A DNA stretch of 64,000 bases. Origin: an uncultured Lachnospiraceae bacterium. GTDB taxonomy: Bacteria > Bacillota > Clostridia > Lachnospirales > Lachnospiraceae. The stretch covers positions 17,788-81,787 of the forward strand of contig CANQGL010000001.1 of the NCBI GenBank assembly GCA_947623185.1. Direction: 5' to 3'. Shown here piece by piece: positions 11,271 to 43,563 of this stretch. The notes under the pieces were generated by a model that worked only from the letters and a program-made list of their open reading frames with translations, had not been told where the DNA came from and did no database searches. The translations under genes and the position numbers were made by a program. Positions within the stretch are counted from its first letter, which is position 1; every line of letters begins with the position of its first letter.

Positions 11271-11271
11271 T

Positions 11272-23597: not shown

Positions 23598-24404
23598 ATG
23601 CAAGAAAGAATTTTACTATTCATTCCCATGTACAACTGTGAGAAGCAGATAGTTAGAGTCTTCAATCAGCTAACCCCAGATATTTGTCAATATTTGTCCG
23701 AGGTAATCGTAGTAAATAATCGTAGTACTGATAATGGGGAGCGGATGGTATTAGAACATTTAAGACAGAATAAAATTACGATTCCGGTTAAGGTTCTTCG
23801 GAACAGGCAGAACTATGGTCTAGGTGGATCTCATAAAGTCGCTTTTCGATATGCAATTAATCACGGATTTGACTATGTTATTGTAATGCATGGAGACGAT
23901 CAAGGGAGATTAGCAGATTTTATTCCGTTATTAAAGAAACATCACTATAAGGAATATGACTGTTGCCTTGGAGCGAGGTTTATGAGGGGATCAAGGTTAC
24001 AGGGATACTCTAAAGTGCGGATATTGGGAAATTATGGCTTCAACCTGCTTTTCTCAGCAATCGCGCGAAAGCGGATATATGACCTTGGTTCAGGCTTGAA
24101 TTTATATAAAGTAGAAACGCTCAAGTCTGGTTACTTTATGAAATACCCGGATACGTTATATTTCAATGATTGCATGATATTAGCATCCTGCTATTATGGA
24201 CATAAAATACTATTTTGCCCAATTAGTTGGCGAGAAGAAGATCAAATATCAAATAATAGAATATTTAATTTTGCTTGTTCACTTTTAAAAATGCTTGGAA
24301 ATTATATATGTAGAAGGAAAACATTTATGGAGTCTGATATGAGAGCAGAGCAAATAGAAGAATATAAAGCTGATATAATTTATTGCGAGGAGGCGGAAAG
24401 ATGA
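23598..24404 (+). CDS. glycosyltransferase family 2, polyprenyl-phosphate sugar synthase (GtrB/DPM1-like)
   Basis: LLFIPMYNCEKQIVRVFNQL...VIVVNNRSTDNGERMV...NYGLGGSHKVAFRYAINHGFDYVIVMHGDDQGR...GARFMRGS. Confidence 0.82.
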   Translation: MQERILLFIPMYNCEKQIVRVFNQLTPDICQYLSEVIVVNNRSTDNGERMVLEHLRQNKITIPVKVLRNRQNYGLGGSHKVAFRYAINHGFDYVIVMHGDDQGRLADFIPLLKKHHYKEYDCCLGARFMRGSRLQGYSKVRILGNYGFNLLFSAIARKRIYDLGSGLNLYKVETLKSGYFMKYPDTLYFNDCMILASCYYGHKILFCPISWREEDQISNNRIFNFACSLLKMLGNYICRRKTFMESDMRAEQIEEYKADIIYCEEAER

Positions 24405-25429
24405 AAATAATGATTACCGGAGCTGCTGGGTTTATTGGTTCGCAGCTAGCTCATGATTTGTGGGAAAAAGGAGCTGAATTGATTTTAATTGATAACTTTT
24501 CTTATGGCTCATTGGATAATCTGATATTTCCGGATCACAATTTCTCTAATGAAATCATTCATATGGATGTCCGTGACAAGAAAGGGATTAGGGAACTGCT
24601 GAAGTTGGGAGATGTTGATTATATCTATCACTTGGCGGGGATAGCACCATTGCCGGATTGTCAGACAGATCCTCAGGAGGCCGTGGCTGTAAACGTAGGA
24701 GGAACTGTAAACATACTGGAGAATTCGCGACGTTGCGGAGTACGGAAAATTATTTTCGCCAGTACTAATGCCATGTATGAAAATGCAGAGATTTTCCCAA
24801 CAACAGAGACTGTTTTTGGACTGCCGTCTCTGATTTATCCGAATACCAAATATGCAGCAGAACGTTTCTGCCAGTCCTACTGTGATACTTACGGAATGAG
24901 CGTGACCTGTTTGCGTTTTGCTAACGTCTATGGCCCCCATATTGATTGCCTAAGAAAGCAGCCGCCTCTTGTTGGATATATGATACGGGAGTTATATTAT
25001 GGAAGGACACCGGTATTTCATTCAGATGGTACCCAAAAGCGGGACTATGTTTATGTTCAAGACTTGATCGATCTTGCTGTGCTAGCTCAGCAAGGTAAAG
25101 GGTTTGACTGCGTGAATGTTTGCTCTAACCATGCATATTCTGTTAATGAATTGTATGATATCGCTCAAGAATTGATGGGAAAGCAGATTCCGGCTGAGTA
25201 TGCATTATCACAAAGTTATTGGAAGAAATACCCTCAATTATATGAAGGCGCTTATACTATCCGCTCCAAAGTGCTTGAGAAAGAGGTAACAAAATACACG
25301 CTTTGTTCCTATGAACATGCCAAAGAAAAGTACGGCTGGGAGCCTAAGATATCCATTTTTGAGGGTATGAAACGTTCTATTGACTATGAGATTTCGCTGT
25401 TTGAAAAGATTGAGAAACGGAAAGAGTGA
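24401..25429 (+). CDS. NAD-dependent epimerase/dehydratase (SDR extended)
   Basis: MKIMITGAAGFIGSQLAHDLWEKG...YHLAG...NVGGTVNILEN...YPNTKYAAERFCQSY. Confidence 0.92.
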   Translation: MKIMITGAAGFIGSQLAHDLWEKGAELILIDNFSYGSLDNLIFPDHNFSNEIIHMDVRDKKGIRELLKLGDVDYIYHLAGIAPLPDCQTDPQEAVAVNVGGTVNILENSRRCGVRKIIFASTNAMYENAEIFPTTETVFGLPSLIYPNTKYAAERFCQSYCDTYGMSVTCLRFANVYGPHIDCLRKQPPLVGYMIRELYYGRTPVFHSDGTQKRDYVYVQDLIDLAVLAQQGKGFDCVNVCSNHAYSVNELYDIAQELMGKQIPAEYALSQSYWKKYPQLYEGAYTIRSKVLEKEVTKYTLCSYEHAKEKYGWEPKISIFEGMKRSIDYEISLFEKIEKRKE

Positions 25430-25433
25430 GGAA

Positions 25434-26186
25434 ATGAAACAAAAGCTTCATTTAGTTATGCCTATGGGAGGAAGAGGATCTCGATTTTTTGATGATGGAT
25501 TTACGATCCCAAAACCGATGATTATGTTGGCCGGAAGGCCTTTTTTTTATTGGGCTGTACAGTCGGTAGTCAAATTCATTGAAGTTGCGGATATTACATT
25601 TGTAGTGCTTCAGGAGCATATTGACAGTCATCATATTGATTCTGAGATCAGAAAAATCTATCCGACTGCCAGGATTGCGGTAATTCCAGCAGTTTTGGAC
25701 GGAGCTGTACTTACCTGTCTTGAAGGAATCAAAGATATTAGAGATAATGGTCCAGTCCTTTTTAATGACTGTGACCACATGTTTATAAGTAAAAGCTTTA
25801 ATGATTTTTGTGCAAATAGGAATTTCAGAAGCATTGACGGGGCGCTTTTGACTTTTGAATCACACGATTCAAAATATAGCTTTTTGGAATATGATGCCCT
25901 GGGAAAGTTCACTCGGACTGTGGAAAAAGAGGCAGTAAGCAGCCATGCTATCTGCGGAGCATATTATTTTAAAGACAGTGACACCTTTCAGAGAGCATCA
26001 AATGAATATCTGAAAGAATGCAGTTACAATGAGTTTTATGTAAGTGGTGTATATAATGTACTTAGCCGAAAGGGAAAAAATGTTCTGGGATTTGAAACAG
26101 ATATTCATATCCCTTTTGGCACACCTGAGGAGTATTATATTGCAGAGAAGGATACAAGGCTGCAATTGGTGAAAGAAAACGCATGA
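25434..26186 (+). CDS. sugar/polyol nucleotidyltransferase
   Basis: LHLVMPMGGRGSRFFDDGFTIPKPMIMLAGRPFFYWAVQSVV...FNDCDHMF. Confidence 0.82.
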   Translation: MKQKLHLVMPMGGRGSRFFDDGFTIPKPMIMLAGRPFFYWAVQSVVKFIEVADITFVVLQEHIDSHHIDSEIRKIYPTARIAVIPAVLDGAVLTCLEGIKDIRDNGPVLFNDCDHMFISKSFNDFCANRNFRSIDGALLTFESHDSKYSFLEYDALGKFTRTVEKEAVSSHAICGAYYFKDSDTFQRASNEYLKECSYNEFYVSGVYNVLSRKGKNVLGFETDIHIPFGTPEEYYIAEKDTRLQLVKENA

Positions 26187-28123
26187 TAAAATGGATATTT
26201 CTTGTGGGGGCTGTTTTGATGCTCTTATTGGGGCACTATCTCCGGATACTTCGGTGGGAGAAGTTTATAAATCTGTATGAAAGACCGCCAATAAGCGCTA
26301 TGTTCCGCTCTTTGTCTCTGGGCTATGCTTTAAATCTGATTCTACCGGTGCGAGCTGGAGATATTTTTAGGACAGCATATTTAGGACGCCGCTTGAGAAA
26401 CGGAATGGGTTTTTCCCTGGCTACGATTATTCTTGACCGTTTCATGGATATCGTTGCTGTTGCAGTAATATTTCTTATCCTTCATACGCTGGGAGTGACA
26501 AAGGCTGCCATAACTGGTTCTGTGATGCTATACGAGATTGCGGCTATCGTTATTGGGACGGGACTGATTGTTTGCAAGCTTTTCAGTCCGCAAATAAAAC
26601 AGACTGCCGCGGCTGTATGCGCCTTTTTTAACGATACAATTCGACTTGAGGGATTGAAATTTTTCTGGTCACTGATCAATGCATTTCGCGATTTGAACAA
26701 GATAGATGTGGCTAAAGTATCAGTCATTACCGTGGTTATGTGGGCAGCATACCTTAGCTCATATGGACTATTTGCTTTGGCTATTTCCGGACCCGGGGGA
26801 TTCTCAACTGTGTTTATCACCTTATTTTCTGGTTCTAGCTTGGGAATGACAGCATTGGGGAGTATGAAAAAGCTGGGCAAAAGCACTACCCCTATTGGAA
26901 TGGTAGAGAGTCTCATCTATACGCTAACTCCAGTTTTTGCTCTTTATGTAGTGACCCTCTTTCCAGATGTATTTCGTAAGCCAATGGGGCGGACTGCAGG
27001 TCTGAGTAATGATGTGAAAGAGGAGAATTACCTTAATATCCTGCCGCAAGTAGATCCTCGTGATCAAATGCAGTTTTTAGAGGACTATTTCAGTTCTTCT
27101 AATAGGAAATTCATAGATAAATTCATCGAACTGAACAGGGGCATTAGTATTTTGCGAGATTATTCTGCGGGTTCAAATGCTACAACGATGCTGTGCATGG
27201 ATAGGGAAAAAACTTTCTACCGGAAGTATGCTTTTGGAGAGGCTAGTGAGAAACTGAATGAACAGCTGGTCTGGTTAGAAGAACATCAGGGAGTAATTCC
27301 TATTTGTGATATCCTTCACAAAGATTGCGGAAATGGGTGGTGTTGCTATGATATGGCATATGTGGGCAACGCTTATGGAATGTTCCAGTACATGCATTCT
27401 CAACCATTTGAACGATCATGGTCTATTCTTAAGTCGATCTTAGATACCTTGTGCGACCACCTTTATACTTTAGATCGAAGGAAACCAGATGAGAATAGTA
27501 TGAAGCAGTATTTTACAGAAAAGGTGGACAGAAACATGGAGAAGATACAAGGATCCAGAATATTGACTGACTTCATACGGCAAGAATATATCATTATTAA
27601 TGGAAAGAAGTATAAGAATCTACCAGAAATGGATGAGCTATTTGACTATGAATATTTGCGGAACGTATTTTCCAATGACAATTACAGTGATATTCATGGG
27701 GATTTGACTATTGAGAACATTATTTGCTTGGATAATGAGAGGGATCCATCGAAGGCGTATTATATCATAGATCCCAACACCGGCAATATACATAACTCTT
27801 CCTTCTTGGACTTTGGGAAGCTTTTGCAGTCTCTACATGGAGGCTATGAGTTCATGATGATGACGAAAAATGTGAAGGTGAATGGGAACCGTGTAGACTT
27901 CCTTTATACTCGCTCAACTATATATGATGAGATGTTAGAGAAGGTAAAAGGATATCTAAGAGAGAGATTTACAGAAGCGGGGGTACGAAGCATCTTCCAT
28001 CATGAATTAATTCACTGGTTAAGGCTGATGCCATATAAATTGGAAAATGATAAAAAAAGGGCAGCCATGTTTTATGCAGGCTTGGTCATGGTTGCAAACG
28101 ATATCGAGGAATGGTATGGATAA
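26183..28123 (+). CDS. fusion: LPG-synthase-TM/flippase-like membrane domain + APH-like small-molecule kinase domain
   Basis: N-terminal TM region (GHYLRILRWEKFINL...YALNLILPVRAGDIFRTAYLGRR...ATIILDRFMDI); C-terminal kinase with Brenner-type HGDLTIENIICL and YYIIDPNTG. Confidence 0.75.
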   Translation: MIKWIFLVGAVLMLLLGHYLRILRWEKFINLYERPPISAMFRSLSLGYALNLILPVRAGDIFRTAYLGRRLRNGMGFSLATIILDRFMDIVAVAVIFLILHTLGVTKAAITGSVMLYEIAAIVIGTGLIVCKLFSPQIKQTAAAVCAFFNDTIRLEGLKFFWSLINAFRDLNKIDVAKVSVITVVMWAAYLSSYGLFALAISGPGGFSTVFITLFSGSSLGMTALGSMKKLGKSTTPIGMVESLIYTLTPVFALYVVTLFPDVFRKPMGRTAGLSNDVKEENYLNILPQVDPRDQMQFLEDYFSSSNRKFIDKFIELNRGISILRDYSAGSNATTMLCMDREKTFYRKYAFGEASEKLNEQLVWLEEHQGVIPICDILHKDCGNGWCCYDMAYVGNAYGMFQYMHSQPFERSWSILKSILDTLCDHLYTLDRRKPDENSMKQYFTEKVDRNMEKIQGSRILTDFIRQEYIIINGKKYKNLPEMDELFDYEYLRNVFSNDNYSDIHGDLTIENIICLDNERDPSKAYYIIDPNTGNIHNSSFLDFGKLLQSLHGGYEFMMMTKNVKVNGNRVDFLYTRSTIYDEMLEKVKGYLRERFTEAGVRSIFHHELIHWLRLMPYKLENDKKRAAMFYAGLVMVANDIEEWYG

Positions 28124-28721
28124 AAAGAAAAAGCTTATTATGGTCGATTTGGATGGCACTTTAGTCGACTCGTTGGAAGCCAACTATCTGGCTTACAGAA
28201 AAGCATTAAACGAACTGGAATACAATATCTCTTGGGAAACTTATGCAAAGAAGTGTGACGGAAAGTCTTACAAGGATTTTCTGCCAGAATTACTAAAAGG
28301 AAATATAGAGCACATGGAAGAAGTCCATGAGAAGAAAAAAAAATACTACCCAAAGTACCTAGAATATATCAAGTTGAATGTTCACCTTGTAGCCATCTTA
28401 CAAGCTATAAAAGATCAATACTATACGGCACTAGTGAGTACTGCATCAAGAGCAAACGTAGAGATCATATTAAATCATTTTGATTTGATGGGGCTGTTCG
28501 ATTGGGTAGTAACTCAAGAGGATGTAAAAAAGAGCAAGCCTGATCCGTCTTGTTATATCATGGCAAGAGAACATTTTGGACTGAACGCAGACGAGGCAGT
28601 TATTTTCGAAGATTCTGCGACAGGCTTGGCGGCCGCCTTAGCAAGCGGCAGCGATGTTTATATGTTAAAAAGGCAAGGGCGAGTATCTGAAAATGAAGAA
28701 AATGTTCCTTCAGTTTGTTAG
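28116..28721 (+). CDS. HAD family hydrolase (beta-phosphoglucomutase-like phosphatase)
   Basis: LIMVDLDGTLVDSLEANYLAYRKAL...ALVSTASRANVEIIL...KSKPDPSCYIMA...IFEDSATGLAAALASG; start overlaps upstream stop. Confidence 0.9.
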   Translation: MDKKKKLIMVDLDGTLVDSLEANYLAYRKALNELEYNISWETYAKKCDGKSYKDFLPELLKGNIEHMEEVHEKKKKYYPKYLEYIKLNVHLVAILQAIKDQYYTALVSTASRANVEIILNHFDLMGLFDWVVTQEDVKKSKPDPSCYIMAREHFGLNADEAVIFEDSATGLAAALASGSDVYMLKRQGRVSENEENVPSVC

Positions 28722-29112
28722 ATTTATAGGAATCTCTGGTGTGGGCTGGTGCATTGATTTTTCATTGTATTTAATGCTTACGTCTGTATTTCGTTGGCCG
28801 GTATTCATTTCTAATTGCCTAAGTGCTGTACCAGCAGTGACATTGGTATTTTCAGTATCTACCGCGAAGATTTTTCGTAAAGCGCCAGGGAAGATTCCAG
28901 TATATGCTAAATATGTGATCTATCTTATTTACCAGTTTATTCTTCTTCTAATTGTTTCATCACTGGGGCAGTGGTTGTCAGACGTTATTATTCTGAAAGC
29001 AACCATGCGATTAATAGTTGACTTGTCAAAAGTGATTGCAAAAGTGATGATAACACCGGTAACTATGGTAATGAATTTTTTGATAATGAAATTATTGTCA
29101 GAGAACTGCTGA
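28693..29112 (+). CDS. GtrA-like small membrane protein
   Basis: FVRFIGISGVGWCIDFSLYLMLTSVFRWPVFISNCLSAVPAVTLVFSVSTAKIF; four TM segments. Confidence 0.75.
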   Translation: MKKMFLQFVRFIGISGVGWCIDFSLYLMLTSVFRWPVFISNCLSAVPAVTLVFSVSTAKIFRKAPGKIPVYAKYVIYLIYQFILLLIVSSLGQWLSDVIILKATMRLIVDLSKVIAKVMITPVTMVMNFLIMKLLSENC

Positions 29113-29549
29113 TGCTAATGGTATATTATGTCTCGACTTATTCTGAAAAGGTAAAGATTTTTGGATACCAATCGTGGATAAGCTAGGCTATAGGGATTAA
29201 CGCTGTGAAAATATTTTATTTATGCTATAGAAAATAAAATTTACGATTTACTTACTAAAACTAGAAATGAAAAGGAACGGGTGGTTTTTGCAATAGAAGC
29301 GATATAAAATGGTAACAAGGGGTTATGATCAAATCTGCTATATGATCAGCTTTAATTCTTTTAATGGTAATGCATATACTGTGCTTTTATCTGCACTTGC
29401 AATAATCAGTTGGTTCCATTCAGCAAGAACAGTAACTATTATACATCAGAGCAAAATCGGGTCAAATGAAATTATTATTTTAAACAGAAATGAATTATTA
29501 CATACCAATAATTTTTGAGACGAGACATAGCAGGAAAGGGCGTTAGATA

Positions 29550-31583
29550 ATGACTATCCAGCGAAAAATCAAGAATGTGGTCAAGCAAACAAAAGCTTGT
29601 CAAAAATATCTGTTGCTAAAGCGGGTTTACAAAGGCATATCCAAACAGCAGACGATAACAAAACAACAGTTTTTAAAAGAAAATTTTACAAAAGTTAAAG
29701 CTATACCAGAATACAAAACAAAAGCCGATCAGCTTTTTCATTTGATGGAACAGGTTAGCATTAGACCGGAGCATAATAACCATTTTTTATATGCACCGGA
29801 TTTTTTTGTTATGCCATACAATCGCAATGGCGTACTGGGTAATTATACTGTTGATTATAGTATAGCCATAAATGGCGACTTAAAGTCACTGTATGAATTA
29901 TACGCCAGAGAGGATACTGTTTTTGGTGAGAGCGCACGATGCATGATTGATGCGTTGGCACTATATGTAAAACGTCTTGAAGCGAATGATACAATATCGG
30001 AACAGTATAAGGCAGCAATCGTTGCGATCCGATCTATGTTTCAACGGCAGGCAAATACATTGTTTGAAGGTTTGCAGCGGATACTTTTCCTGAATCAGAT
30101 GCTTTGGCAAACAGCTCGAAATCTAATTGGCTTGGGGCGACTGGACAAGCTTTTGACGGATTTGTATGCCAAAGATATCGAGGCAGGTGTTTTGACCAGG
30201 GAAATGGCCAAACAAATGCTAAAGGATTTCTTCAGCGTCCTGCATGAGTATTGTGGCTTTAAAAGCAATTCTCTGATGGGTGATACCGGACAGATCATCA
30301 TCTTGGGTGGACGAGAGGCAGATGGCAGTTACTTTTGTAATGACCTCACATATCTTTTTATTGAAACAGCCAAAGAAATGCACCTGCCTGATCCAAAAGT
30401 TCTGCTGCGTTGCACGGCAGATATGCCAGAGAACCTTTTGGAACTGGCATTGGAATGTATCGCCACAGGTATCGGTGCGCCGCTGCTTTCCAATGACGAT
30501 GCTGTTGTCCCGGCAATGATAAGCTCTGGTTTTTCGGCGGAAGATGCTTATAATTACTGTACAGCGGCCTGCTGGGAGCCGTTGGTTCCCGGCATTAGTT
30601 GCGACGCAAACAACGTAGCTTCACTGAATTTTTCTATCCCGTTGACACAAATGATGACTACGTCTGAATTCCTGGCGGTGAATTCAAAAGAGAAATTGCT
30701 GAAGTTGTATAAAATGTATTTACAAGAGTACATCGAAAAGCTATTGACACCTTTGACTGGGTATGAATTTGAAGAAGATCCACTGCTGACACTCTTGAGC
30801 CCTTCGGCGCGGGAACGGCACTTGGATATTGTACATGGCGGCGCAAAATACAACAATCTTGGTCTTACTTCTGTTGCACTGGGGACAGTTATTAATTCAA
30901 TTTTAAATATCGACAAGCTTGTTTTTACACAAAAGAGGTATACGCTTGAGGAGCTTGAACAGAAGCGCCGTAACAATTTTGCTGACTGCGAAAAACTGGT
31001 CAAGGAGCTGAAAGATCTGGCACCAGCATATGGCAGTGATGCCCCTGAAGTGGTCGAGTTGACAAAACAGATCATGGCATTCACTAGTACGGAAATGGCC
31101 AAGTATAAGACAAAACATGGCGGTAGATTCAAAATCGGATTAAGCTCTCCAAGTTATATTAGCGGAGCTGATAAGGTTCCGGCGACCTATGATGGCCGCA
31201 GAAATGGTGCTCCCTTTACTGTTCATATTTCTTCTGCCAAAGCACTACCGGTCACAGAGCTGCTTCATTTTGCAATGCAACTGGATTATAATGACAACCG
31301 TCTTAACGGCAATGTGATTGATTTTTTCACGACTCCAGGATTGCTAAAGCAAAATCTTAGTAAATTTGCGGCTTTGCTGCGTGCTGGATTTGCCGGCGGT
31401 ATCTTTCAGCTGCAGATGAATGTAGTAGACAGCAAGACCTTGATCGCGGCGAAAGCCTCTCCCGAGTTGTTCCCGGATCTGGTCGTACGGGTATGGGGCT
31501 TCAGCGCGTACTTCAACGATTTGCCAGAGGAATACAAGGATGTACTTATAGCGAGGGCTCTTGAGAGTGAAAAGGTGGCGTGA
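29550..31583 (+). CDS. glycyl radical enzyme, eliminase/dehydratase-like branch of the pyruvate formate-lyase superfamily
   Basis: Catalytic CWEP (Cys341-x-Glu343, DNA 30570) and C-terminal glycyl loop RVWGFSAYF (Gly650 of 677); GQIIILGGREADGSYFCNDLTYL...IGAPLLSNDDAVVPAMISSGFSAEDAYNYCTAACWEP. Confidence 0.9.
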   Translation: MTIQRKIKNVVKQTKACQKYLLLKRVYKGISKQQTITKQQFLKENFTKVKAIPEYKTKADQLFHLMEQVSIRPEHNNHFLYAPDFFVMPYNRNGVLGNYTVDYSIAINGDLKSLYELYAREDTVFGESARCMIDALALYVKRLEANDTISEQYKAAIVAIRSMFQRQANTLFEGLQRILFLNQMLWQTARNLIGLGRLDKLLTDLYAKDIEAGVLTREMAKQMLKDFFSVLHEYCGFKSNSLMGDTGQIIILGGREADGSYFCNDLTYLFIETAKEMHLPDPKVLLRCTADMPENLLELALECIATGIGAPLLSNDDAVVPAMISSGFSAEDAYNYCTAACWEPLVPGISCDANNVASLNFSIPLTQMMTTSEFLAVNSKEKLLKLYKMYLQEYIEKLLTPLTGYEFEEDPLLTLLSPSARERHLDIVHGGAKYNNLGLTSVALGTVINSILNIDKLVFTQKRYTLEELEQKRRNNFADCEKLVKELKDLAPAYGSDAPEVVELTKQIMAFTSTEMAKYKTKHGGRFKIGLSSPSYISGADKVPATYDGRRNGAPFTVHISSAKALPVTELLHFAMQLDYNDNRLNGNVIDFFTTPGLLKQNLSKFAALLRAGFAGGIFQLQMNVVDSKTLIAAKASPELFPDLVVRVWGFSAYFNDLPEEYKDVLIARALESEKVA

Positions 31584-31605
31584 CCGATGTAATAAAGGTG
31601 TTCTT

Positions 31606-33039
31606 ATGGAAAGAAAAAGCATAAAAAAGAATTATATACTCAATGCAGCGTATCAAGTACTGTTGTTGATCACGCCGCTGATTACAGCGCCGTATCTTTC
31701 CCGTGTGCTGGAAGCAGACGGTATCGGAACCGTCAGCTTTGCTGAATCTATTGTATCGTATTTCACACTGGTTGCTACGATGGGGATCAATACCTATGGG
31801 CAGCGGGAGATATCTTATGCACAGGATGATATCGAGAAACGCAGTGAACTTTTTTGGAATACTAAGGTTCTGGGCTTTTGTACTTCAGGTCTGACCTTGC
31901 TCATATATCTGCTTTTCGTATTTTGGAAGCAGGGCGCATCAACGATTTATTTATTCTTGTCACTGAACTTGGTGTCGGTCTTTTTTGATATCACATGGTT
32001 TTTTCAGGGGCTGGAGGAATTCGAGAAAACCGTCATACGCAACGCTATTTGCAAAGTAATGAATATTCTTTATATCTTTGCATTTGTCAAAAGCAAGGAA
32101 GATTTGCTGCTATATGCATTGGGCCTAGGTTTGTTCACATTGTTGGGTAACTTATCACTTTGGGCCTATCTACCCAAATTTATTCAATTACCGCAGCGCT
32201 CAAAGCTCAAACCATTCCGAGATATAAAGGTCGTATGGGCTTTATTTGTTCCTACAATAGCCATTCAAATTTACACCGTGCTCGACAAGACGATGATTGG
32301 TGTGATCACGAACAACTCATTTGAGAACGGATATTACGAACAAGCTTCGAAGATATCCAAAATGGCGTTGTCCATTGTAACAGCGCTGAGTACAGTTATG
32401 GTACCTCGGGTCGGGTATCTTTTCAGCCAAAATCGCACGGAAGAAATGCGTGGATCAATGTACCGGAGCTATCGGTTTGTATGGTTTTTGGGCATACCAC
32501 TTTGTTTTGGGGTGTGCATGACAGCGCCTAGTTTTGTACCATGGTTTTTGGGAAGTGGATATGGAAAAGTCGTTACACTGCTGCAGATTCTTCCTTTTTT
32601 GATATTGGCCATTGGCATCAACAATGCAACGGGGATTCAGTATCTAATCCCTACAAAGCGGCAAAATCTTTTTACGTTGACAGTGATTATTGGGGCCTGT
32701 ACGAATTTCTGCTTGAATGTGGTATTGATTCATTACTTTCAAGCAACCGGTGCGGCGGTGGCCTCGGTTGCGGCGGAAAGCACGATTGCCATTGTGCAGC
32801 TGATTTTTGTACGCAAAGAACTGTCGCCGTGGAGAATCGTAAAGAGTGGGGCGCATTATTACATTGCCGGTGCAGTGATGGCACTAACGCTATGGCCGTT
32901 GAGATGTAGTCTGTCGCCTTCCTCTCTGCACACGATGTGCATGGTCCTGTGCGGAGCGGTAGTCTACTTTTTGGTGTTGATTTTCTTCCACGACGATTTT
33001 CTGCTTGATAATGTTCAAGATCTGCTGAAGCGAATCTGA
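31606..33039 (+). CDS. Wzx-type oligosaccharide flippase
   Basis: KNYILNAAYQVLLLITPLITAPYLSRVLEADGIGTVSFAESIVSYF...NTYGQREISYAQ...FDITWFFQGLEEFEKT. Confidence 0.92.
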   Translation: MERKSIKKNYILNAAYQVLLLITPLITAPYLSRVLEADGIGTVSFAESIVSYFTLVATMGINTYGQREISYAQDDIEKRSELFWNTKVLGFCTSGLTLLIYLLFVFWKQGASTIYLFLSLNLVSVFFDITWFFQGLEEFEKTVIRNAICKVMNILYIFAFVKSKEDLLLYALGLGLFTLLGNLSLWAYLPKFIQLPQRSKLKPFRDIKVVWALFVPTIAIQIYTVLDKTMIGVITNNSFENGYYEQASKISKMALSIVTALSTVMVPRVGYLFSQNRTEEMRGSMYRSYRFVWFLGIPLCFGVCMTAPSFVPWFLGSGYGKVVTLLQILPFLILAIGINNATGIQYLIPTKRQNLFTLTVIIGACTNFCLNVVLIHYFQATGAAVASVAAESTIAIVQLIFVRKELSPWRIVKSGAHYYIAGAVMALTLWPLRCSLSPSSLHTMCMVLCGAVVYFLVLIFFHDDFLLDNVQDLLKRI

Positions 33040-33053
33040 AAAAGGAGTGAAAA

Positions 33054-33854
33054 ATGGAAAAGAAAATCCTTTTGACGAATATCCAACGCTTTTCTCTGCA
33101 TGACGGGCCAGGTATTCGGACGACGGTTTTCTTAAAAGGATGCTCGCTGCGTTGTCCTTGGTGTGCTAATCCGGAGAACATAGAGCCGCATGTACAGCAA
33201 TATTGCAAAGATGGACAAAAAGGAACTTACGGCAGGTACTATACCAGCGGTGAACTGCTTGCTGAGCTGCAAAAGGACAAGGTATTCTATACTCAAATGG
33301 CGTCAGAGACCACACTGGGGAAACTTCCGGGTGGTGTGACTTTTTCCGGCGGAGAGCCGTTGCTGCAATTTGCAGCGCTGGAACCAGTGCTGCGGGAATT
33401 GAAGGCTGAGAAAATCCACATTTGCATAGAAACCTGCCTGTTTGCTCCCAGGGAAATGCTGGAGCTTGCCTTGCGATATGTGGATTTGTTTTATGTGGAT
33501 ATCAAGATACTCAATGCAGTGAGGTGTAGAAATATCCTTTGCGGAGATACGGAGCAGTATCTTTCAAACATAGAACAACTGTTTAAACTCCATAAGGATG
33601 TCATATTCAGGATACCGGTGATCGGGGGATACACCGATGGGGAAGAAAATATAGATGAAATCGTCAGTTTTTTGTTGCAATTCAAGCCACTAAAAATTGA
33701 GCTGATAAAAGAACACAATCTCGGCAAAAGCAAGTACCTGTCGCTAGGCAAAAAACCACTGGAATTGAATTGCGTTTCAGACGAACAAATGGAACGCATA
33801 AAAGCAGCACTATTTGATATCACAAAATTGCCGATAGAGATTTGTAAGGTGTAA
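33054..33854 (+). CDS. glycyl-radical enzyme activating enzyme (radical SAM)
   Basis: RFSLHDGPGIRTTVFLKGCSLRCPWCANPENI (CxxxCxxC), GGVTFSGGEPLLQ, IETCLFAP; no obvious 8-Cys ferredoxin insert. Confidence 0.92.
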   Translation: MEKKILLTNIQRFSLHDGPGIRTTVFLKGCSLRCPWCANPENIEPHVQQYCKDGQKGTYGRYYTSGELLAELQKDKVFYTQMASETTLGKLPGGVTFSGGEPLLQFAALEPVLRELKAEKIHICIETCLFAPREMLELALRYVDLFYVDIKILNAVRCRNILCGDTEQYLSNIEQLFKLHKDVIFRIPVIGGYTDGEENIDEIVSFLLQFKPLKIELIKEHNLGKSKYLSLGKKPLELNCVSDEQMERIKAALFDITKLPIEICKV

Positions 33855-34214
33855 AAGCGCCCACAACACATAGGCACCATGGATATAGAAGTACAATATC
33901 TAAGGAGCATAGTATGCAGTTAATTCACATACTTCTCATCGGCGTCACAGATGTTGTTGTAATAATTTAGCCAAGCGATTACTTTACTGTGCTGAAATAA
34001 GATATTGAGTGTCATAAAAAATAAAGATTAACAGCTGAGAGCGAAGGCTAACTAAAACTAGAGGCATAGCTATGGTAGCTGTTTTACCCTGTGCCGTTAA
34101 TAAATATTTGGAAATGAGTGATGTCAATCGCAAAGGTGTGAGCAATTGGCGCTTTTGGATAGATTATATAGAAAATGGGCAATAGATCCGTCATCAGCAG
34201 CTTGAACTCCCCGT

Positions 34215-34963
34215 AGGATATAATCTTCGTTGTATTACGGGAGCAGGGGACTGGGGAGACCGTTCAGGATAGACAGCCAGAACTTGGCGCATTCATTCAG
34301 ACCGACATACATTCCCAGCACATCTTTGCGTCCGTTCATATCGATTCCGATCGCGATATAGACAGTACGCTTTTCAATACGCCCTTCGTGACGGATATGG
34401 TAATGGATCGCGTCCATGAATACGACCGCGTAGATTTCTTCTGGGGACCGTTCCAGCTCTGTGTGCTGTGCTATACCATTCTTTTACTACAGGAAAGATC
34501 TTATCAGCGATGCGGCTTATAGTACTGTCATATATCTCTATGCTATAAAGCTGGCGCATATGGCATTTGATATCGTTTTCAGTCATGTCTTTTGCATACA
34601 TGAAGAAGAGTTTTTCCTCCGTATCCTGTGTGACAGTGATTTTTTTGGCTGGGCCGGGGCTCAAACTTGCTTTTGCGGTCCCTGGGGATGCCGAGTCCCA
34701 TATCCCCATAACTGATATGCATGGTCCTTTGAGAGTGGATGTTCCAGAAGCTGTCTGTATCTTTGTTGCGGTAAATCATACTTGGAATATCCCAGTTCTT
34801 CATCCAATTCCTCGTCCAAGGAAACTTCCAGGTTGAGGCCCATCATATCGTGCATGATGGAATTGACGTCCTCCCCATCCCTGATTTTTACACTATTCTT
34901 CATAAAAGAGCCTGTCATTTTACAAAAAGCTGCCTTTTGTGGAGAATCCTTTTTCCTAGCCAT
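34215..34963 (-). pseudogene. degraded IS256-family (mutator) transposase
   Basis: Minus strand fragments in several frames: NSIMHDMMGLNLEVSLDEELDEELGYSKYD...SYGDMGLGIPRDRKSKFEPR...NDIKCHMRQLYSIEIYDSTISRIADKIFPVVKEW...MDAIHYHIRHEGRIEKRTVYIAIGIDMNGRKDVLGMYVGLNECAKFWLSILNGL; frameshifted and 3'-truncated. Confidence 0.88.
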
Positions 34964-35093
34964 AATAAAACCTCCAAACTGTGTAGTTTTATCCCACATT
35001 AGTTTGGAATTAACACAATTTTTGGGATAAACCCCATTTCCTCTGCAACTTCTGGTATGAAACCTGATCACCCGAGAAAGGCGCGGACGCTGA

Positions 35094-36602
35094 TTGGATC
35101 ACTATGATTCTTCCCTCAAACTCAACTTCATCATGAATGCCATCTTGGCGTCAGCCACAATCCTGTTTCCCCTGATCACTTTTCCCTATGTCTCCCGGAT
35201 ATTACTGCCGACCGGGACCGGAAAAGTATCTTTCGCGGTATCGCTGATCTCCTATTTTAACCTGTTTGCCCAGCTGGGTATCCCGACTTACGGGATTAGG
35301 GCATGTGCAAAAGTAAGAGATGATAAAACGGAACTCACAAGGACATCTCATGAACTGCTGTTCATCAGCCTGTCCATGAACGTTTTATCTTATATTGCTC
35401 TGGCTATAGCAGTGACCTATATACCAAGACTGCAGGAAGAGCGGCTTCTGTACTTTACTGTCAGCGCGTCGATCTTCCTTAATGCCATCGGCATGGAGTG
35501 GCTCTATAAGGCACTGGAGAGGTATGCATATATCACTGTACGGTCAGTGGTCTTTAAGCTGATCGCGGTCATGGCTATGTTCCTGATGGTGAGAAAAACG
35601 GAAGACTATATCATCTACGGAGGAATCACGGTCCTTGCGTCCTCAGGATCATACATTTGCAACCTGTTCCACGCGCGCCGATACATCTGGGTACACCCGA
35701 TAGGCGGTTATGAGATCCGTCGGCATCTGAAAGCTGTGATGGTGTTCTTCGCCATGACCTGTTCGACGCTCATCTATACCCAGCTCGATACGGTGATGCT
35801 GGGCTTTATGAAGACGGATGTAGATGTGGGCTATTACAGTGCTGCAGTGCAGATCAAAACGGTATTGGTCAGTATAACTGCTTCTTTAGGGAATGTGCTG
35901 CTCCCGCGTTCGTCATATTACATTGAACAGGGAAAGCTGAATGCGTTTCATAACCTTAACCAGAAGGCGTTAAATTTTGCTTTTGTTGTAGCGTTACCCA
36001 TGACGCTGTTTTTTATTCTCTTTGCCCCCTATGGGATTGGCTTCTTGTCCGGGCCCTCATATGCAGCCTCGATCCCCGTGATGCGGATTATCATGCCGAC
36101 TGTTCTGTTGATCGCGGTCACGAACATCCTGGGGATCCAGATCTTGGTGCCGCTGGGACGCGAAAAAGTGGTGCTTAAATCCGAGATCGCGGGCGCGGTG
36201 ACGGATCTGGTCTTGAATCTGATCCTGATCCCCAGGTATGCGGCGGCCGGAGCGGCAGTCGGGACGATGGCAGCGGAAGCAGTTGTTCTGGGTGTACAGT
36301 ATACTTCGTTGAGAAGCAGTATCAAGGAAATGGCCCAGAAGATCCAGTTTCGTAAGATTTTGATGGCTTTGTGTGTTGGAGGTTCTATTGCGTTATTCAC
36401 CACTAAGATACTGCTTGCAAGGGCTTTAAATGAGATGATCAGCGTCCATAACGCTCTTGGATGTTTCGCAGGACTTGCAGCTTCTGGTTGCGCTATGTTC
36501 GGGACTTATGCTATTATTTTGGCCCTGACAGCTGAGCAGCTGACTATTGAAACGATGAAATGGTTGGTCAGAGGCCTCCGGCAAAGAAAAGCTAAAGGTT
36601 AG
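35094..36602 (+). CDS. second Wzx-type oligosaccharide flippase
   Basis: SLKLNFIMNAILASATILFPLITFPYVSRILLPTGTGKVSFAVSLISYFNLFAQLGIPTYGIRACAKVRDD; TTG start. Confidence 0.92.
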   Translation: MDHYDSSLKLNFIMNAILASATILFPLITFPYVSRILLPTGTGKVSFAVSLISYFNLFAQLGIPTYGIRACAKVRDDKTELTRTSHELLFISLSMNVLSYIALAIAVTYIPRLQEERLLYFTVSASIFLNAIGMEWLYKALERYAYITVRSVVFKLIAVMAMFLMVRKTEDYIIYGGITVLASSGSYICNLFHARRYIWVHPIGGYEIRRHLKAVMVFFAMTCSTLIYTQLDTVMLGFMKTDVDVGYYSAAVQIKTVLVSITASLGNVLLPRSSYYIEQGKLNAFHNLNQKALNFAFVVALPMTLFFILFAPYGIGFLSGPSYAASIPVMRIIMPTVLLIAVTNILGIQILVPLGREKVVLKSEIAGAVTDLVLNLILIPRYAAAGAAVGTMAAEAVVLGVQYTSLRSSIKEMAQKIQFRKILMALCVGGSIALFTTKILLARALNEMISVHNALGCFAGLAASGCAMFGTYAIILALTAEQLTIETMKWLVRGLRQRKAKG

Positions 36603-36614
36603 GGGGAAAACACC

Positions 36615-37702
36615 TTGGAAATGATCAGGGAGATCAAGTCAGAAGAAAACAGAAAAGTGTATTTGGATTTTCTTAGGATAATGGCAATTTTTATGGTCCT
36701 ATATAACCATACAGGTACCAGAGGCTATGTATTATTCACTATTGCCCAAGGATCACCATTATATTGGTCCTATTTGTTCTTTTCCATTTTCATAAAAATC
36801 AATGTGCCTGTTTTCTCTATGATATCAGGCGCATTGCTTTTACCTCGTCAGGAGTCAGCAGGGCAGGTGGCGTATAGGCGTATAACGCGGTTTACTGCCG
36901 CTTTGGTTTTATGTTCTATGGTGGGATACCTGTACCAGTTACATTTAGATCTGTCTAAGTTTTCATTGGAATATTTTTTTAGGACACTGTATTCAAACAG
37001 ACTTACCAATGCATCATGGTATTTGTATGCATACCTTGCCTTTCTTGTTGCACTTCCTCTTCTTCAAAGTTTTGCAAAGTCATTGAGCTATAAACAATAT
37101 ATTTACATGATAGAGGTATATCTTGCATTTCAATGCCTAAGTATCTTTGAATACATTTTTGAGCCGGGGGGGGGGGTATTTCTCATAATGGCTATTTCAA
37201 CTTCTTCATGGCGTCCCAAAATGTATTATACCCGATGATTGGATATTTTCTGGAAGAACGGCTGCCTTATAAGCATTATACATGGAAAAACTTTATCTGT
37301 TTGATCATTGCCAGTATTCTTGCCACGGGGGTATGTTGCGTTTTAACGAATCACTATTGTACGCTGAATAACGCTTGGACAGAGGGAACCTGCCAAAAAT
37401 ATATGGGAACGCTAACTGTGATTCCCACGATAACAGTTTATTATGGAACAAAGCTATGGTTTATGCATCATAAGCTGTCTTCCCGGATGGAAAAGACCAT
37501 CATAATGTTGGGTGACTGTACATTTGGTATCTATCTGTTCGAGCAGATCTATAGAGGAAGAACAGTATGGATTTACGATATGCTATACCCAGTTCTGCAT
37601 AGCTTTCCGTCCTGCCTGTTATGGATTGTAGCAGCTTGTCTTCTGGGTACTGCTGTAACACTGATTTTGAAAAAGATTCCTGTTTTAAGAAAGATACTGT
37701 AG
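36615..37702 (+). pseudogene. acyltransferase 3 family protein, out of frame at a G11 homopolymer (possible phase-OFF allele)
   Basis: ORFs 36615-37238 (RKVYLDFLRIMAIFMVLYNHTGTRG) and 37208-37702; frames join through the G tract at 37166-37176 (..EPGG/GISHNGYFNFFMASQNVLYPMIGYFLEE..). Confidence 0.85.
37166..37176 (+). repeat. poly-G tract (11 G) inside acyltransferase coding sequence
   Basis: gagcc-GGGGGGGGGGG-tatttc read directly. Confidence 0.95.
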
Positions 37703-37734
37703 ATTCTTTCAAGGTAGCTACAGGACAGAAGAAA

Positions 37735-38815
37735 ATGACCACTGAAAAAACCCGGATCCAATATATCGATATTGCAAAAGGTATCTCGATCATCTGCATT
37801 ATCCTGGGCCATCTGAACAGTTGGCAGATCACCCGGGTTGTGTTTACATTCCATGTGCCTCTTTTCTATTTTATCACGGGGTATTTTACCGATGACCGTC
37901 TGCCGGTAAAAGCATTCATAAAACATAAGGCACGAACGCTTCTGATACCATATGCTTTCACCTGCATGGTGATCATTCTTCTGGCCGCGCTGGAATACGG
38001 TCTGTTCTTTGGCGTGGAGGCGGCATGGAGGGCAGCCCTGGACTGGTCCTACGCGGCTGCTTACGGGGCCGGGGATTCTTATACCAGCCCGTTTTATATC
38101 AAGTCGATCGGCGCCATATGGTTCCTGTGGGCGTCGTTCTGGGGGGAGCGTTTTTCTGCGTGCTTTTCTTGCACTCGGGAAGTGGCAGCGGATATTGGCG
38201 ATCGCGGCCATTTTTTTCTTCGGGTACGCGTCCAGGGCCCTGTTCTGGTTCCCGTGCAGCATCCAGGCCGGATGCTGCGCTGCGCTTTTCCTATATATAG
38301 GCTGGCTGGTAAAGAGAGCTGAAGGATGGTTAAAAGACGCGCCCGGCGAAGTGAAGGCGGCCGCGGCAGTATTAGCTCTTGCTGTATGGCTGTCATTCAT
38401 AAAGAACTTTCAGTCATTCTGGCTCGTCCACTGCGATATCGGGCGGGGGATCATAGATATCATCGGCTGTATGTGCGGAAGCGGCATCGTCCTGCTGGTT
38501 TCCCGGTATATAGATAGGCGTTTTCCAAAAACGGCGTGCGCATTGCGCGCCGCAGGCCGTTACAGTCTGCTCGTGCTGTGCCTGCATATCGTGGAACTGG
38601 ATACTTTTCCATGGTGGCAGTTAACTGACGAACTTGTCCGGCGCGGTTTACCGGCTTGGCTGCAGATCTATGTCATAATCGCAGGAAAGGCACTGCTGAT
38701 CTTCCCGTCGGCTTTTATCTGCCTGAAATGGGAATGGGTCCGGAGGCTGTTCGGATATGAACGGTTTCATGAACGATCCGGTTTCGGTCACAAATCAGGC
38801 CCAAAAGGAGCATGA
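37735..38815 (+). pseudogene. second acyltransferase 3 family protein, frameshifted around 38141-38200
   Basis: MTTEKTRIQYIDIAKGISIICIILGHLN...IGAIWFLWASFWG then continues in another frame (SVFLRAFLALGKWQRILAIAAIFFFGYASRALFW...). Confidence 0.75.
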
Positions 38816-38821
38816 CCGCTT

Positions 38822-40207
38822 ATGCACGATCTTAAACACGATATCTCTCTGCGGGCGGCGGAAGCGCTGAACGCAGTCCTCATCACGATCCCGTTCATCG
38901 CATGCTGGTACGGCTACTATGCTCCGCGCCTGTATTCCCCGTTCTACCGGAAGGGAAACTGGGCCGTGATCGCCCTGTTCGTGGCCGTATATCTGACTTA
39001 TGCAAAGGTCTATGACGCCCTCCAGGTGTCTTTGAGCCGTATCCCGGAGATGACCTACAGTCAGGGACTGGCTGCCTTCATCACCGATGCGATCTTATAT
39101 GTGGTCACATACCTGCTCACCAAATTTATCCCTGACCCGCTGCCGCTCATGGCAGCGTTTATTTTTCAGGTCGTTTTTGCGTTCTTGTGGTCTATCGCGG
39201 CCAACAGGTGGTATTTCTTCATGTTCCCGCCGAAACGGACAGCCATCGTCTATGATAAGAGGCCGGAGCTGGAGGCGATGATCGGCCGCTACCGGATGGA
39301 AAAGAAGTTTGATATCCTGGCGGCCGTGACGGCGGCGGAATGTCTTGGGGACCTCTCTATGCTGGAGAACATGGAGGTCGTTTTCCTGGGCGGTGTGCAC
39401 AGCCATGACCGGAACACGGTCCTCAAGTACTGCATGGAACACGGGATCGACGCCTATGTGATCCCGAGGATCGGGGATACGATCATGAGCGGTGCGAAAC
39501 AGACGCACATGTTCCATCTGCCGATCTTAAGTGTGGACTGGTGCCATCCGCGGGTGGAATACCTGTTCATGAAGCGGGCGATGGATATCGCGGTCTCCGC
39601 GGCGGCGCTGGTACTTGCATTACCGCTTATGCTGCTCACGGCGGTGTTCGTCCATTTCTCCGACGGAGGGCCGGTCTTCTATAAACAGGAACGGCTCACG
39701 AAGGACGGGAAGAGGTTCCGGCTGATCAAGTTCCGCTCCATGTGCGTGGACGCGGAGGAGGACGGCGTGGCGCGACTATCGACTGGGGGAAATGACCCGC
39801 GGATCACGCCGGTCGGAAGAGTGATCCGAAGGTTTCGGATCGATGAGCTCCCGCAGTTCTTCAACGTGCTGAGAGGAGACATGTCGTTAGTGGGCCCGAG
39901 GCCGGAGCGCCCGGAGATCGCAGAGCTCTATACAGAGGAGCTTCCGGAGTTTTCCCTGCGGCTAAAGGCAAAGGCCGGTCTTACCGGGTATGCGCAGGTG
40001 TACGGGAAATACAATACGGAACCTTATGATAAGCTGCAGATGGACCTGATGTATCTGGCTCACCCGAGCATCATCGAGGATCTGCGGATCCTGTTCTCAA
40101 CAGTGAAGATCCTGTTCATGCCGGAGAGCACGGAGGGGATCGAAGAGGGGCAGACGACGGCGGTCAGGAACGAACTGCCGGATGCATGCAAGACCAAAGA
40201 GATATGA
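38822..40207 (+). CDS. second initiating phosphoglycosyl transferase (sugar transferase, bac_transf)
   Basis: KRAMDIAVSAAALVLALPLMLLTAVFVHFSDGGPVFYKQERLTKDGKRFRLIKFRSM...RIDELPQFFNVLRGDMSLVGPRPERPE...KAGLTGYAQVYGKYNT. Confidence 0.94.
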   Translation: MHDLKHDISLRAAEALNAVLITIPFIACWYGYYAPRLYSPFYRKGNWAVIALFVAVYLTYAKVYDALQVSLSRIPEMTYSQGLAAFITDAILYVVTYLLTKFIPDPLPLMAAFIFQVVFAFLWSIAANRWYFFMFPPKRTAIVYDKRPELEAMIGRYRMEKKFDILAAVTAAECLGDLSMLENMEVVFLGGVHSHDRNTVLKYCMEHGIDAYVIPRIGDTIMSGAKQTHMFHLPILSVDWCHPRVEYLFMKRAMDIAVSAAALVLALPLMLLTAVFVHFSDGGPVFYKQERLTKDGKRFRLIKFRSMCVDAEEDGVARLSTGGNDPRITPVGRVIRRFRIDELPQFFNVLRGDMSLVGPRPERPEIAELYTEELPEFSLRLKAKAGLTGYAQVYGKYNTEPYDKLQMDLMYLAHPSIIEDLRILFSTVKILFMPESTEGIEEGQTTAVRNELPDACKTKEI

Positions 40208-40226
40208 TCCATAAGGATGGAGATAA

Positions 40227-41009
40227 ATGCAGGAGACACCTTTCATCAGCATCATCATGCCGGCGTTCGATGCCGAAAAGACGATCCGCGATTCCGTACA
40301 GTCTGTTTTGGACCAGACATACCGGGATTGGGAACTTCTGATCATAGATGACGGTTCGTCAGACGGGACCGGGCGTGCGGCAGAGTCGTTGGCGGAATCG
40401 GATCCGCGGATCCGTGTTTTTACGAATCGGGTGAATCAGGGAGTCTCGGAGAGCCGGAATATCGGTATCCGGAACGCGCGGGGAGAGTGGATCGCGTTCC
40501 TCGACAGCGACGATCTCTGGACGTCCGTGAAGCTGCAGGAGCAGGTCGAGTTTGTCGGAAATGACCCATCGGCCGATCTGGTCTTTACGGGGAGCGCGTT
40601 CATGAACGGCCGGGGCGAGCGGGCAGAGTATATCCTGAAGGTCCCTCAGACGGTATCGTACCGGGAGCTGTTCAGGCAGAACATCATATCCTGCTCGTCG
40701 GTCCTGGTGCGGAAAGAACTGATGCTGAGATACCCGATGGGACACGACGGGATGCATGAAGACTACGCCGTCTGGCTGCAGATCCTGAGGGACGGGGGCT
40801 GTGCGAGAGGGATCGATGAGCCGCTCCTGATCTACCGCCTGTCTGCGGGCTCGAAATCTGGAGATAAGAAGAGAGCGGCACTCATGACATACCGGGTGTA
40901 CCGGTTCATGGGCCTGGGACCGATTCGGTCCCTTTATTATTTTGCGTGTTACTGCTTCCGCAGCATGAAGAAGTACTATAACATAAGACGGACGATAGAG
41001 GAGAATTAA
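40227..41009 (+). CDS. glycosyltransferase family 2
   Basis: PFISIIMPAFDAEKTIRDSVQSVLDQTYRDWELLIIDDGSSDGTG...NQGVSESRNIGIRNARGEWIAFLDSDDLW. Confidence 0.95.
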   Translation: MQETPFISIIMPAFDAEKTIRDSVQSVLDQTYRDWELLIIDDGSSDGTGRAAESLAESDPRIRVFTNRVNQGVSESRNIGIRNARGEWIAFLDSDDLWTSVKLQEQVEFVGNDPSADLVFTGSAFMNGRGERAEYILKVPQTVSYRELFRQNIISCSSVLVRKELMLRYPMGHDGMHEDYAVWLQILRDGGCARGIDEPLLIYRLSAGSKSGDKKRAALMTYRVYRFMGLGPIRSLYYFACYCFRSMKKYYNIRRTIEEN

Positions 41010-41026
41010 GCTTGCAGAAAGACCGA

Positions 41027-42496
41027 ATGAAGATCTTTTTCATTAATCCGCCGTTTAAAGCCGAATACGGAAAGTTTTCAAGGGAGTCCAGAAGTCCTGC
41101 CATAACGAAGAGCGGCGCGCTTTATTACCCTCTCTGGCTGATTTATGCCGCAGCCTACTGCGAAAAACAGGGATTCGAAGTCGGCTTTCTGGACGCGCCT
41201 GCAAAGCAGTGGAATGAAGATAAGAGTCTGGAATACATAGAGAAAAACGGCGCCGACAGCGGCCTGTTTGTTTTGGATACCAGCACTCCGTCAATAAACA
41301 GCGATATTAAATTTGGGGAAGTTTTGAAAGAACGGTATCCGAATGCATTTGTCCTCCTTGTAGGAACGCATCCTTCGGCTGTCCCGGAAGAAACGCTGAT
41401 GATCGGGAGCCGGATCGACGGGGTAGCCCGCCGGGAGTATGATCATACCGTTTCGGAGCTTGCCTTTGCGCTTGAGAAGGGGAACGGCCCTGATGCGGTA
41501 AAGGGTATATCATACCGGCTGGGCAGCAGGATCATTCACAATCCGGACAGGGAATTTATACAGGAGCTGGATGAGATTCCTTTTGCGGCAGAGTTTATAC
41601 ATCGGTATCTGGATCTCCGGGATTATTTTTTCGCGGCAGCTCATTATCCTTCTATTCAGATCTTCACGGGGAGAGGCTGCCCGAGCCGCTGCAATTTCTG
41701 CGTTTATCCGCAGACCATGCACGGTCATCAATACCGTCTTCGGTCGCCCGAAAATGTGGTCCGGGAATTTCAGTATATCGCGGAAAACTTCCCGGATGTA
41801 AAGGAAGTAGTGATCGAGGACGACACGTTTACCGTCAATAAGGAACGGGTCACGGATATCTGCCGCCTGATCATCGAAAGGGGATTGCAGAAACGGTTAA
41901 AATGGCTGTGCAACGCCCGTGTGAATCTGGATCTGGAAACGATGCAGTTGATGAAACAGGCAGGATGCAGGTTGATCATTCCGGGGATCGAAAGCGGAAA
42001 CCAACAGATCTTAAACAACATTAAAAAGGGGATCACGATTGAGCAGATCGAGAACTATGTGAAAGATGCCCAAAAAGCCGGTTTGCTGATCCATGCCTGT
42101 TATATGGTGGGCAATAAGGGAGAAACGCGGGAAACGATGGAAAACACACTGGCGCTGGCCTTGCGGCTGAACACGGATACCGCCCAGTTTTTTCCATTGA
42201 TCCCGTATCCGGGAACGGAAGCCTATGAGTGGGCGAGAAGCAGCGGATATATCAAAGCCGGATATGATCATTACTGCAAAGAAGACGGGACGCACAACTG
42301 CGTGCTGGATCTGCCAGGACTGTCGTCACAGGAGATGGTCGATTTCTGCGACGAGGCGAGGAGGAAATACTATATGCGGCCGCGTTACTTTGCGCATCGG
42401 CTCGCTGTCGGGATCAAGGATCCGTCGGATCTAAAGAGAAGCCTGAAGGCGTTTGGGAGACTAAGGAGATATTTAGTCAGGAAACGGGAGGAGTAA
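41027..42496 (+). CDS. B12-binding-domain radical SAM protein
   Basis: MKIFFINPPF...YPLWLIYAAAYCEKQGFEVGFLDAP (cobalamin-binding-like N-domain), TGRGCPSRCNFCVYPQ (CxxxCxxC), EDDTFTVNKERV...IPGIESGNQQILNNIKKGIT. Confidence 0.92.
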   Translation: MKIFFINPPFKAEYGKFSRESRSPAITKSGALYYPLWLIYAAAYCEKQGFEVGFLDAPAKQWNEDKSLEYIEKNGADSGLFVLDTSTPSINSDIKFGEVLKERYPNAFVLLVGTHPSAVPEETLMIGSRIDGVARREYDHTVSELAFALEKGNGPDAVKGISYRLGSRIIHNPDREFIQELDEIPFAAEFIHRYLDLRDYFFAAAHYPSIQIFTGRGCPSRCNFCVYPQTMHGHQYRLRSPENVVREFQYIAENFPDVKEVVIEDDTFTVNKERVTDICRLIIERGLQKRLKWLCNARVNLDLETMQLMKQAGCRLIIPGIESGNQQILNNIKKGITIEQIENYVKDAQKAGLLIHACYMVGNKGETRETMENTLALALRLNTDTAQFFPLIPYPGTEAYEWARSSGYIKAGYDHYCKEDGTHNCVLDLPGLSSQEMVDFCDEARRKYYMRPRYFAHRLAVGIKDPSDLKRSLKAFGRLRRYLVRKREE

Positions 42497-42549
42497 AGCA
42501 GCAGAGGTTTAATGTTTGCTTTGCGTATATTAATTACAAGGAGAGCAAA

Positions 42550-43563
42550 TTGGACTCAAAAGTATTATCGATCGTAGTTCCCTCATACAATACCTCGGGT
42601 TTTCTCGATAAAAATATAAGAACGCTCTTGGACAAAAGGATCTTAAAAGAGCTGGAGGTGCTGATCGTCGATGACGGGAGCACGGATGATACAGCTGAAA
42701 AGGCGAAGAGATATGAAGAGCTCTATCCGGACACGGTGCATGTCATCAGCAAAGAGAACGGAGGGCACGGATCCGCGATCAATGTGGGGATTGAGAGGGC
42801 ACAGGGAGTTTATTTCAAGGTCGTCGATGGAGACGATTGGGTGGATACACAAAATCTTTGTCAGCTGATCAGGGATCTGGAGGGACAGGATTCGGACCTC
42901 GTAATAAACCCTTATAACAAAGTGTGCAGCGGATCATCGAAGGTCAAAAAGATCACACTGGCATCTGATTACGGGAAAGGGACCCTTTTCGATACAGTCT
43001 GTTCCGATTATCCGCAGCTTGAGATCCATAGCATTACGATCAAAACAGATCTGCTGCGGGATCACGGTATCCGTGTCAGGGAAAGATGCTTTTATGAAGA
43101 CAGTGAATATGATCTGTTTCCCACTCCCTTCATAAATACAGTCACAGTTCTTGATTATCCGGTGTATCAGTATCTGGTCGGACAAACAGGGCAGAGCATC
43201 AGTGCTTTTAATGCGCTGAAGAACCATAGAATGCACTTTCAGGTTATTCAGGACTGCATAGGGTTTTATGAGAACTGGAAGGGGAAGATCTCGGAGAACA
43301 AACGCATCTATATGCGAAATGTTATTTTTAAATTGATCCGTACTCAATACAATATATATCTGCGCAATGGACCCCGTGAAGGCAGTTATGAAAAAATGGT
43401 GGAATTCAGTGAGGACCTGAAAAGCAGATATCCGCTATATCATCAGGAAGTATCGCGAAAATACGGGTATATTCGGTTATTGCAGAGCAAAAGAAAACCG
43501 GTTTTCCATATCTGCTCCTTTAGTGTGAGGATTTATAAGAAGATATTCCATGGATCGGGTTAG
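42550..43563 (+). CDS. glycosyltransferase family 2
   Basis: LSIVVPSYNTSGFLDKNIRTLL...LIVDDGSTDDTAEKAKRYEELYP...KENGGHGSAINVGIERAQGVYFKVVDGDDW; TTG start. Confidence 0.92.
   Translation: MDSKVLSIVVPSYNTSGFLDKNIRTLLDKRILKELEVLIVDDGSTDDTAEKAKRYEELYPDTVHVISKENGGHGSAINVGIERAQGVYFKVVDGDDWVDTQNLCQLIRDLEGQDSDLVINPYNKVCSGSSKVKKITLASDYGKGTLFDTVCSDYPQLEIHSITIKTDLLRDHGIRVRERCFYEDSEYDLFPTPFINTVTVLDYPVYQYLVGQTGQSISAFNALKNHRMHFQVIQDCIGFYENWKGKISENKRIYMRNVIFKLIRTQYNIYLRNGPREGSYEKMVEFSEDLKSRYPLYHQEVSRKYGYIRLLQSKRKPVFHICSFSVRIYKKIFHGSG

Follow-up and report, generated by a model that had tools for sequence, protein, structure and literature searches.

A poly-G tract as a probable phase-variation switch in a surface-glycan acyltransferase gene of an uncultured Lachnospiraceae bacterium

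Discussion of phase variation in gut bacteria centres mostly on DNA inversion, and that of switches working by slippage mostly on pathogens (Neisseria, Campylobacter, Haemophilus). The repeat in the oafA gene of Haemophilus influenzae is a tetranucleotide, not poly-G. The oafA product is a phase-variable acyltransferase-3 enzyme that O-acetylates a surface glycan (reviewed in PMC9558356). In Neisseria meningitidis, a poly-G tract located between the -35 and -10 boxes of porA tunes the expression of a surface protein stepwise, with 11G, the longest of three tracts compared, giving the strongest expression; slippage was measured in that system (PMC3639595). For the sortase-dependent pili of Bifidobacterium breve UCC2003, an intragenic G10/G11 tract was described and its slippage measured, and G-tracts in promoter spacers were also mentioned (PMC9187656).

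Here we describe a G11 tract in an acyltransferase gene of a Lachnospiraceae genome, found in a window of 64 kb (the whole stretch of DNA analysed). The locus resembles that of the B. breve pili in that an intragenic G-tract splits a surface-structure gene of a gut commensal, with the frame set by tract length (PMC9187656), and differs in that B. breve is an actinobacterium with measured slippage, while the present case concerns a glycan acyltransferase in a member of the Lachnospiraceae and is argued from sequence. The porA arrangement resembles four promoter tracts elsewhere in the same genome, whereas the window tract lies in coding sequence; the organisms are unrelated. Compared with oafA, the glycan is not a lipooligosaccharide but a polysaccharide of a Gram-positive-lineage cell. 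The Campylobacter poly-G phasome (PMC6321876) likewise places numerous G-tracts in the surface-related genes of a single genome, in an unrelated organism. The mechanism proposed here thus belongs to a type already known from Neisseria porA, Bifidobacterium pili and Haemophilus oafA. A search limited to the open-access literature found no description of such a poly-G set in Lachnospiraceae.

A preliminary description held that eleven consecutive Gs split an acyltransferase-3 ORF into two frames, and this is borne out by sequence, run statistics and frames at positions 37166..37176 (+ strand). The tract is the only G-run of at least 8 in the window, where ~0.03 runs of at least 11 would be expected by chance from the window's own dinucleotide frequencies. 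The frame entering the tract (36615..37238, + strand, likely ATG at 36621) is open for 187 codons up to G11 and reaches a stop 19 codons past it. It encodes the N-terminal half of an acyltransferase-3 protein (PF01757, E 1.6e-12, profile positions 2-176 of 326), scoring 47.6 bits against a curated cut-off of 31. The frame leaving the tract (37163..37702, + strand) comprises ~180 open codons, with ~174 stop-free codons beyond G11, and encodes the C-terminal half of the same acyltransferase. The two frames fuse into one ORF if the number of Gs is divisible by 3, and the earlier arithmetic, by which a gain of one G (G12) or a loss of two (G9) restores the ORF, is right. Tract length therefore sets the reading frame of a single gene. 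The tract was also considered as a promoter spacer of the porA type and ruled out, since no fitting -35/-10 pair surrounds it.

That the two halves belong together is seen from the homologue L022, a single 357-aa ORF that matches both in one frame, with the junction at G11. The N half is 42% identical to L022 (alignment end at nt 1489) and the C half 39% identical in the frame of the N half (alignment start at nt 1500). The C half by itself has no Pfam match, and its family assignment comes through L022. No orthologue of the window gene was found in the two sister genomes discussed below, no relatives in GTDB contigs or IMG/VR using back-translated peptides, and no match in a distant DNA search of phages. 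The flank of the gene was not found in viral contigs, and a sequence comparison of the N half with solved structures gave no match.

The gene is part of a surface-polysaccharide cluster spanning approximately 976..43563 (+ strand, limits set by judgement). Its upstream neighbour is a polysaccharide flippase (PF01943, 35094..36602, + strand). Directly downstream is a second acyltransferase-3 gene (37741..38815, + strand), followed by a sugar-phosphate transferase (PF02397, 38822..40207, + strand), the flippase and this transferase being identified by Pfam. The cluster also encodes a NusG-like protein, a GT4-type glycosyltransferase, a glycerophosphotransferase, a glycyl-radical enzyme with its radical-SAM partner and, judged by eye, GT2-like ORFs; in all it contains two PF02397 sugar transferases and two flippases. 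The PFL-like glycyl-radical enzyme and its probable radical-SAM activase (29550-33854) stand on either side of a flippase, which is an unusual location. Two short minus-strand ORFs (34374-35071) that separate the radical-SAM gene from the second flippase resemble transposase remnants by eye.

Two other genes of the cluster are broken, so that decay of the cluster is possible. In the second acyltransferase gene the frame breaks near a G6 run (38141-38146), which is too short for an obvious switch, and we claim none there. The GT4-type glycosyltransferase gene (12224-13447) is split by stops into two ORFs in the absence of any homopolymer. On this evidence the window gene could be a pseudogene, in which a frameshift in the G-run was never reversed. 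Against this, a G11 is improbable by chance and the frame behind it has stayed free of stops over its whole length. Two further lines of evidence, from the rest of the genome and from sister species, bear on the same question.

Across the whole genome (2.75 Mb in 170 contigs), G-runs of at least 7 comprise two G7, no G8, six G9, two G10, two G11 and one G12. The lengths are bimodal, with a gap at 8 and eleven runs of 9-12. Such a distribution is unlike that of chance runs, and matches what would be expected of tracts maintained by selection. The window tract, itself beyond chance in length, falls in the upper mode, as would be the case for a poly-G phase-variable gene; the eleven long tracts and the missing G8 also speak against a single decayed gene. 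We rejected the idea that loss of mismatch repair produced the long tracts: this genome encodes the MutS_I domain, as do the five other genomes tested. The presence of MutS would also slow slippage, which is a point against a switch.

Four of the other ten tracts sit exactly between the -35 and -10 boxes of promoters upstream of genes, as in porA: TTGACA-20-TATAAT (contig C7), TTGACA-20-TAGAAT (C12), TTGACG-18-TATAAT (C49) and TTGACA-18-TATAAT (C54, a G9 tract). The first genes behind them encode three secreted choline-binding-repeat proteins and, for C54, a TctC receptor with its transporter operon. Three tracts are intragenic: one in a radical-SAM gene (C25), in frame as assembled; a G9 in TctB of a tripartite tricarboxylate transporter (C31:6049-6057, L215), out of frame; and one in a PAPS-reductase-like gene, probably out of frame. 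Two are intergenic, one upstream of a LysR-type regulator (C31) and the other on C68. The last, a G12 (C57:16646-16657, L218), lies at a contig end and precedes two large ORFs of exported or surface type. The contig breaks off inside this G12, which fits a tract that stops assembly, and the start of the first ORF is signal-peptide-like. From the TctB tract and the TctC promoter tract, it appears that transport, beyond surface glycans, may be switched too.

The breakage of contig C57 inside a G-tract is also a reminder that such tracts are hard to sequence, and in B. breve the reference length was unlike the culture majority (PMC9187656). The G11 length could accordingly be an assembly or sequencing error in a gene that is intact and constant. 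A one-base mistake would nevertheless leave the long tract, which is the unusual feature, in place, and most of the large ORFs around the gene in the cluster are intact. Tracts are moreover found at conserved positions in the independently assembled genomes of sister species, described next, and we regard an error of this kind as very improbable indeed.

Two congeneric species (G001 and G002) contain 34 and 26 G-runs of at least 8, respectively. They share a locus, 82% identical in DNA, encoding PseF, PseC, PseI and PseG above the NCBIfam cut-offs, the enzymes of pseudaminic-acid synthesis, and this locus carries three G-tracts at conserved positions. The first (G12/G12 in the two species) is in an acyltransferase gene whose C part weakly matches PF01757; the second (G9/G12) is in a gene that looks acyltransferase-like by eye, the pieces of which have no Pfam match; and the third (G12/G11) is at a GNAT/formyltransferase junction with a poorly aligned upstream flank. 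In the assemblies, all six alleles read out of frame. The frames downstream of the tracts nevertheless have dN/dS values of 0.23, 0.26 and 0.07, respectively, as against 0.72-1.95 in the other two frames of the same DNA, values that pertain to the sister-species genes and not to the window gene. Sequence that is apparently untranslated in both assemblies is, by this measure, under protein-level selection. The third site is the weakest of the three, since its downstream gene could have its own start. Tract length differs between the species at two of the three sites; lengths of 9 and 12, like 12 and 12, share a frame phase, so a change in length does not by itself prove an ON state in these species.

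Selection persisting past OFF tracts fits reversible switching or recoding better than decay. Taken with the genome-wide tracts, the purifying selection on sister-species genes with similar tracts makes the pseudogene explanation of the window gene unlikely. Recoding would join the frames with no change in DNA, as RNA polymerase slips or the ribosome shifts frame at the G-run, and short and full-length product would then occur in a fixed ratio. Recoding through frame transitions at slippery runs is known (PMC3711429), and selection on six alleles that are all OFF is what some residual reading of the OFF frame would lead one to expect. The variation in tract length between species (9 versus 12) argues in the other direction, as do the promoter-spacer tracts of the window's genome, which fit slippage of DNA instead.

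Tracts were also found in more distant relatives. Among ~28 other homologues of the window gene, three contain G-tracts of at least 9 inside the gene at unrelated positions: a G11 in L040 (genome G062, OFF), a G9 near the C-terminus in L025 (G119, OFF) and a G9 at about codon 5 in L032 (G284, ON). At the family-wide tract density ~0.03 would be expected (Poisson P ~3e-6), a probability that rests on average density and is truly larger, G062 being rich in tracts. G-tracts seem to have arisen repeatedly in acyltransferases. The in-frame allele in G284, together with that of the radical-SAM gene on C25, is a further point against recoding, which we consider a very unlikely explanation. Over all coding tracts, we read 11 as OFF and 2 as ON, an excess that is not significant against an expectation of one-third ON.

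We therefore favor the reading that G11 is a phase-variable switch in a surface-glycan acyltransferase gene, captured in the OFF state by the assembly, and place its probability at roughly 0.8. The preliminary proposal of a poly-G slipped-strand switch with an OFF allele is supported by the bimodal tract set of the genome, by the -35/-10 spacers in which G-tracts precede genes for exported proteins, by the tracts that two sister species conserve in acyltransferase-like genes while selection persists in the OFF frame, and by the independent tracts in further homologues of the family. The tract first noticed is one member of a larger set in the genome.

In the mechanism that we propose, replication would slip at the G-run, mostly by one base per event. 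Lengths that are multiples of three would yield a full acyltransferase-3 membrane protein of ~360 residues, and other lengths, including the assembled G11, would lead to the early stop past the tract and a product lacking the C-terminal half. Judging from its family and gene neighbourhood, the enzyme would add an acyl group, probably acetyl, to the polysaccharide made by the surrounding cluster, and a clone would then be a mixture of decorated and undecorated cells. Among the eleven tracts of at least 9 in the genome, some would switch genes by frame in this way, and others would tune promoters through the -35/-10 spacing.

Poly-G promoters are also present in other genomes. The exact pattern TTGACA-N-G7-TATAAT occurs at 12 sites in 9 of 299 family genomes (0 for the reversed control), and at least 118 stretches with poly-G-spacer promoters were found in GTDB contigs. 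Among the GTDB matches listed, most are from assemblies of gut Clostridia and Bacilli, with others from Saccharibacteria, spirochaetes, Streptobacillus and further groups. By a crude hydrophobicity test, an export-like N-terminal segment is encoded by 75 of 98 first ORFs behind these promoters, compared with 91 of 396 control ORFs from the same loci (Fisher 1e-22, among the matches listed). The poly-G spacers peak at 15-16 and 18-19 bp, with only 7 of 125 at 17 bp (L093-L210, L051-L062), whereas the commonest length of non-G spacers from these loci is 17 bp (14 of 27; Fisher 6e-8, both among the matches listed). Allowing one mismatch in the boxes, the contrast persists but is weaker (P 1e-4, among the matches listed), and in the search of the family genomes, which was complete, none of ~10 distinct sites has a 17-bp spacer. 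Either most populations are off the optimum, or the geometry of G-tract DNA shifts it.

The G-tracts of the family are mixed and not all of them are switches: where one tract was sampled per family genome, convincing promoter spacers numbered 2 of ~30. The median family genome (200 examined) has one G-run of at least 9, and some have 20-30. One genome (G148, L253-L268) has 126 such runs. In the 314 kb of it that was read there are six G7, 33 G8 and 30 G9; no run is longer, TA follows most of them, and several lie in apparent housekeeping genes. Because their length stops at 9 and they occur in such genes, these runs were left out as frame switches, and may represent a motif, another phenomenon or an artefact.

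We give an even chance to the broader proposal that gut Clostridia and Bacilli possess a widespread, so far undescribed poly-G phasome. In it, surface-glycan acyltransferases would be switched through recurrent intragenic tracts and exported proteins tuned through poly-G promoter spacers mostly off the 17-bp optimum, with bulk populations largely in low or off states from which escape to ON is ready. As the tracts are short and exact, the claim is testable with existing sequencing data. A multi-locus poly-G set in Lachnospiraceae, the sister species and many gut Clostridia and Bacilli would let tract lengths in metagenomes reveal surface variation in major commensals, and poly-G switching of the surface bears on recognition by phages and by the immune system.
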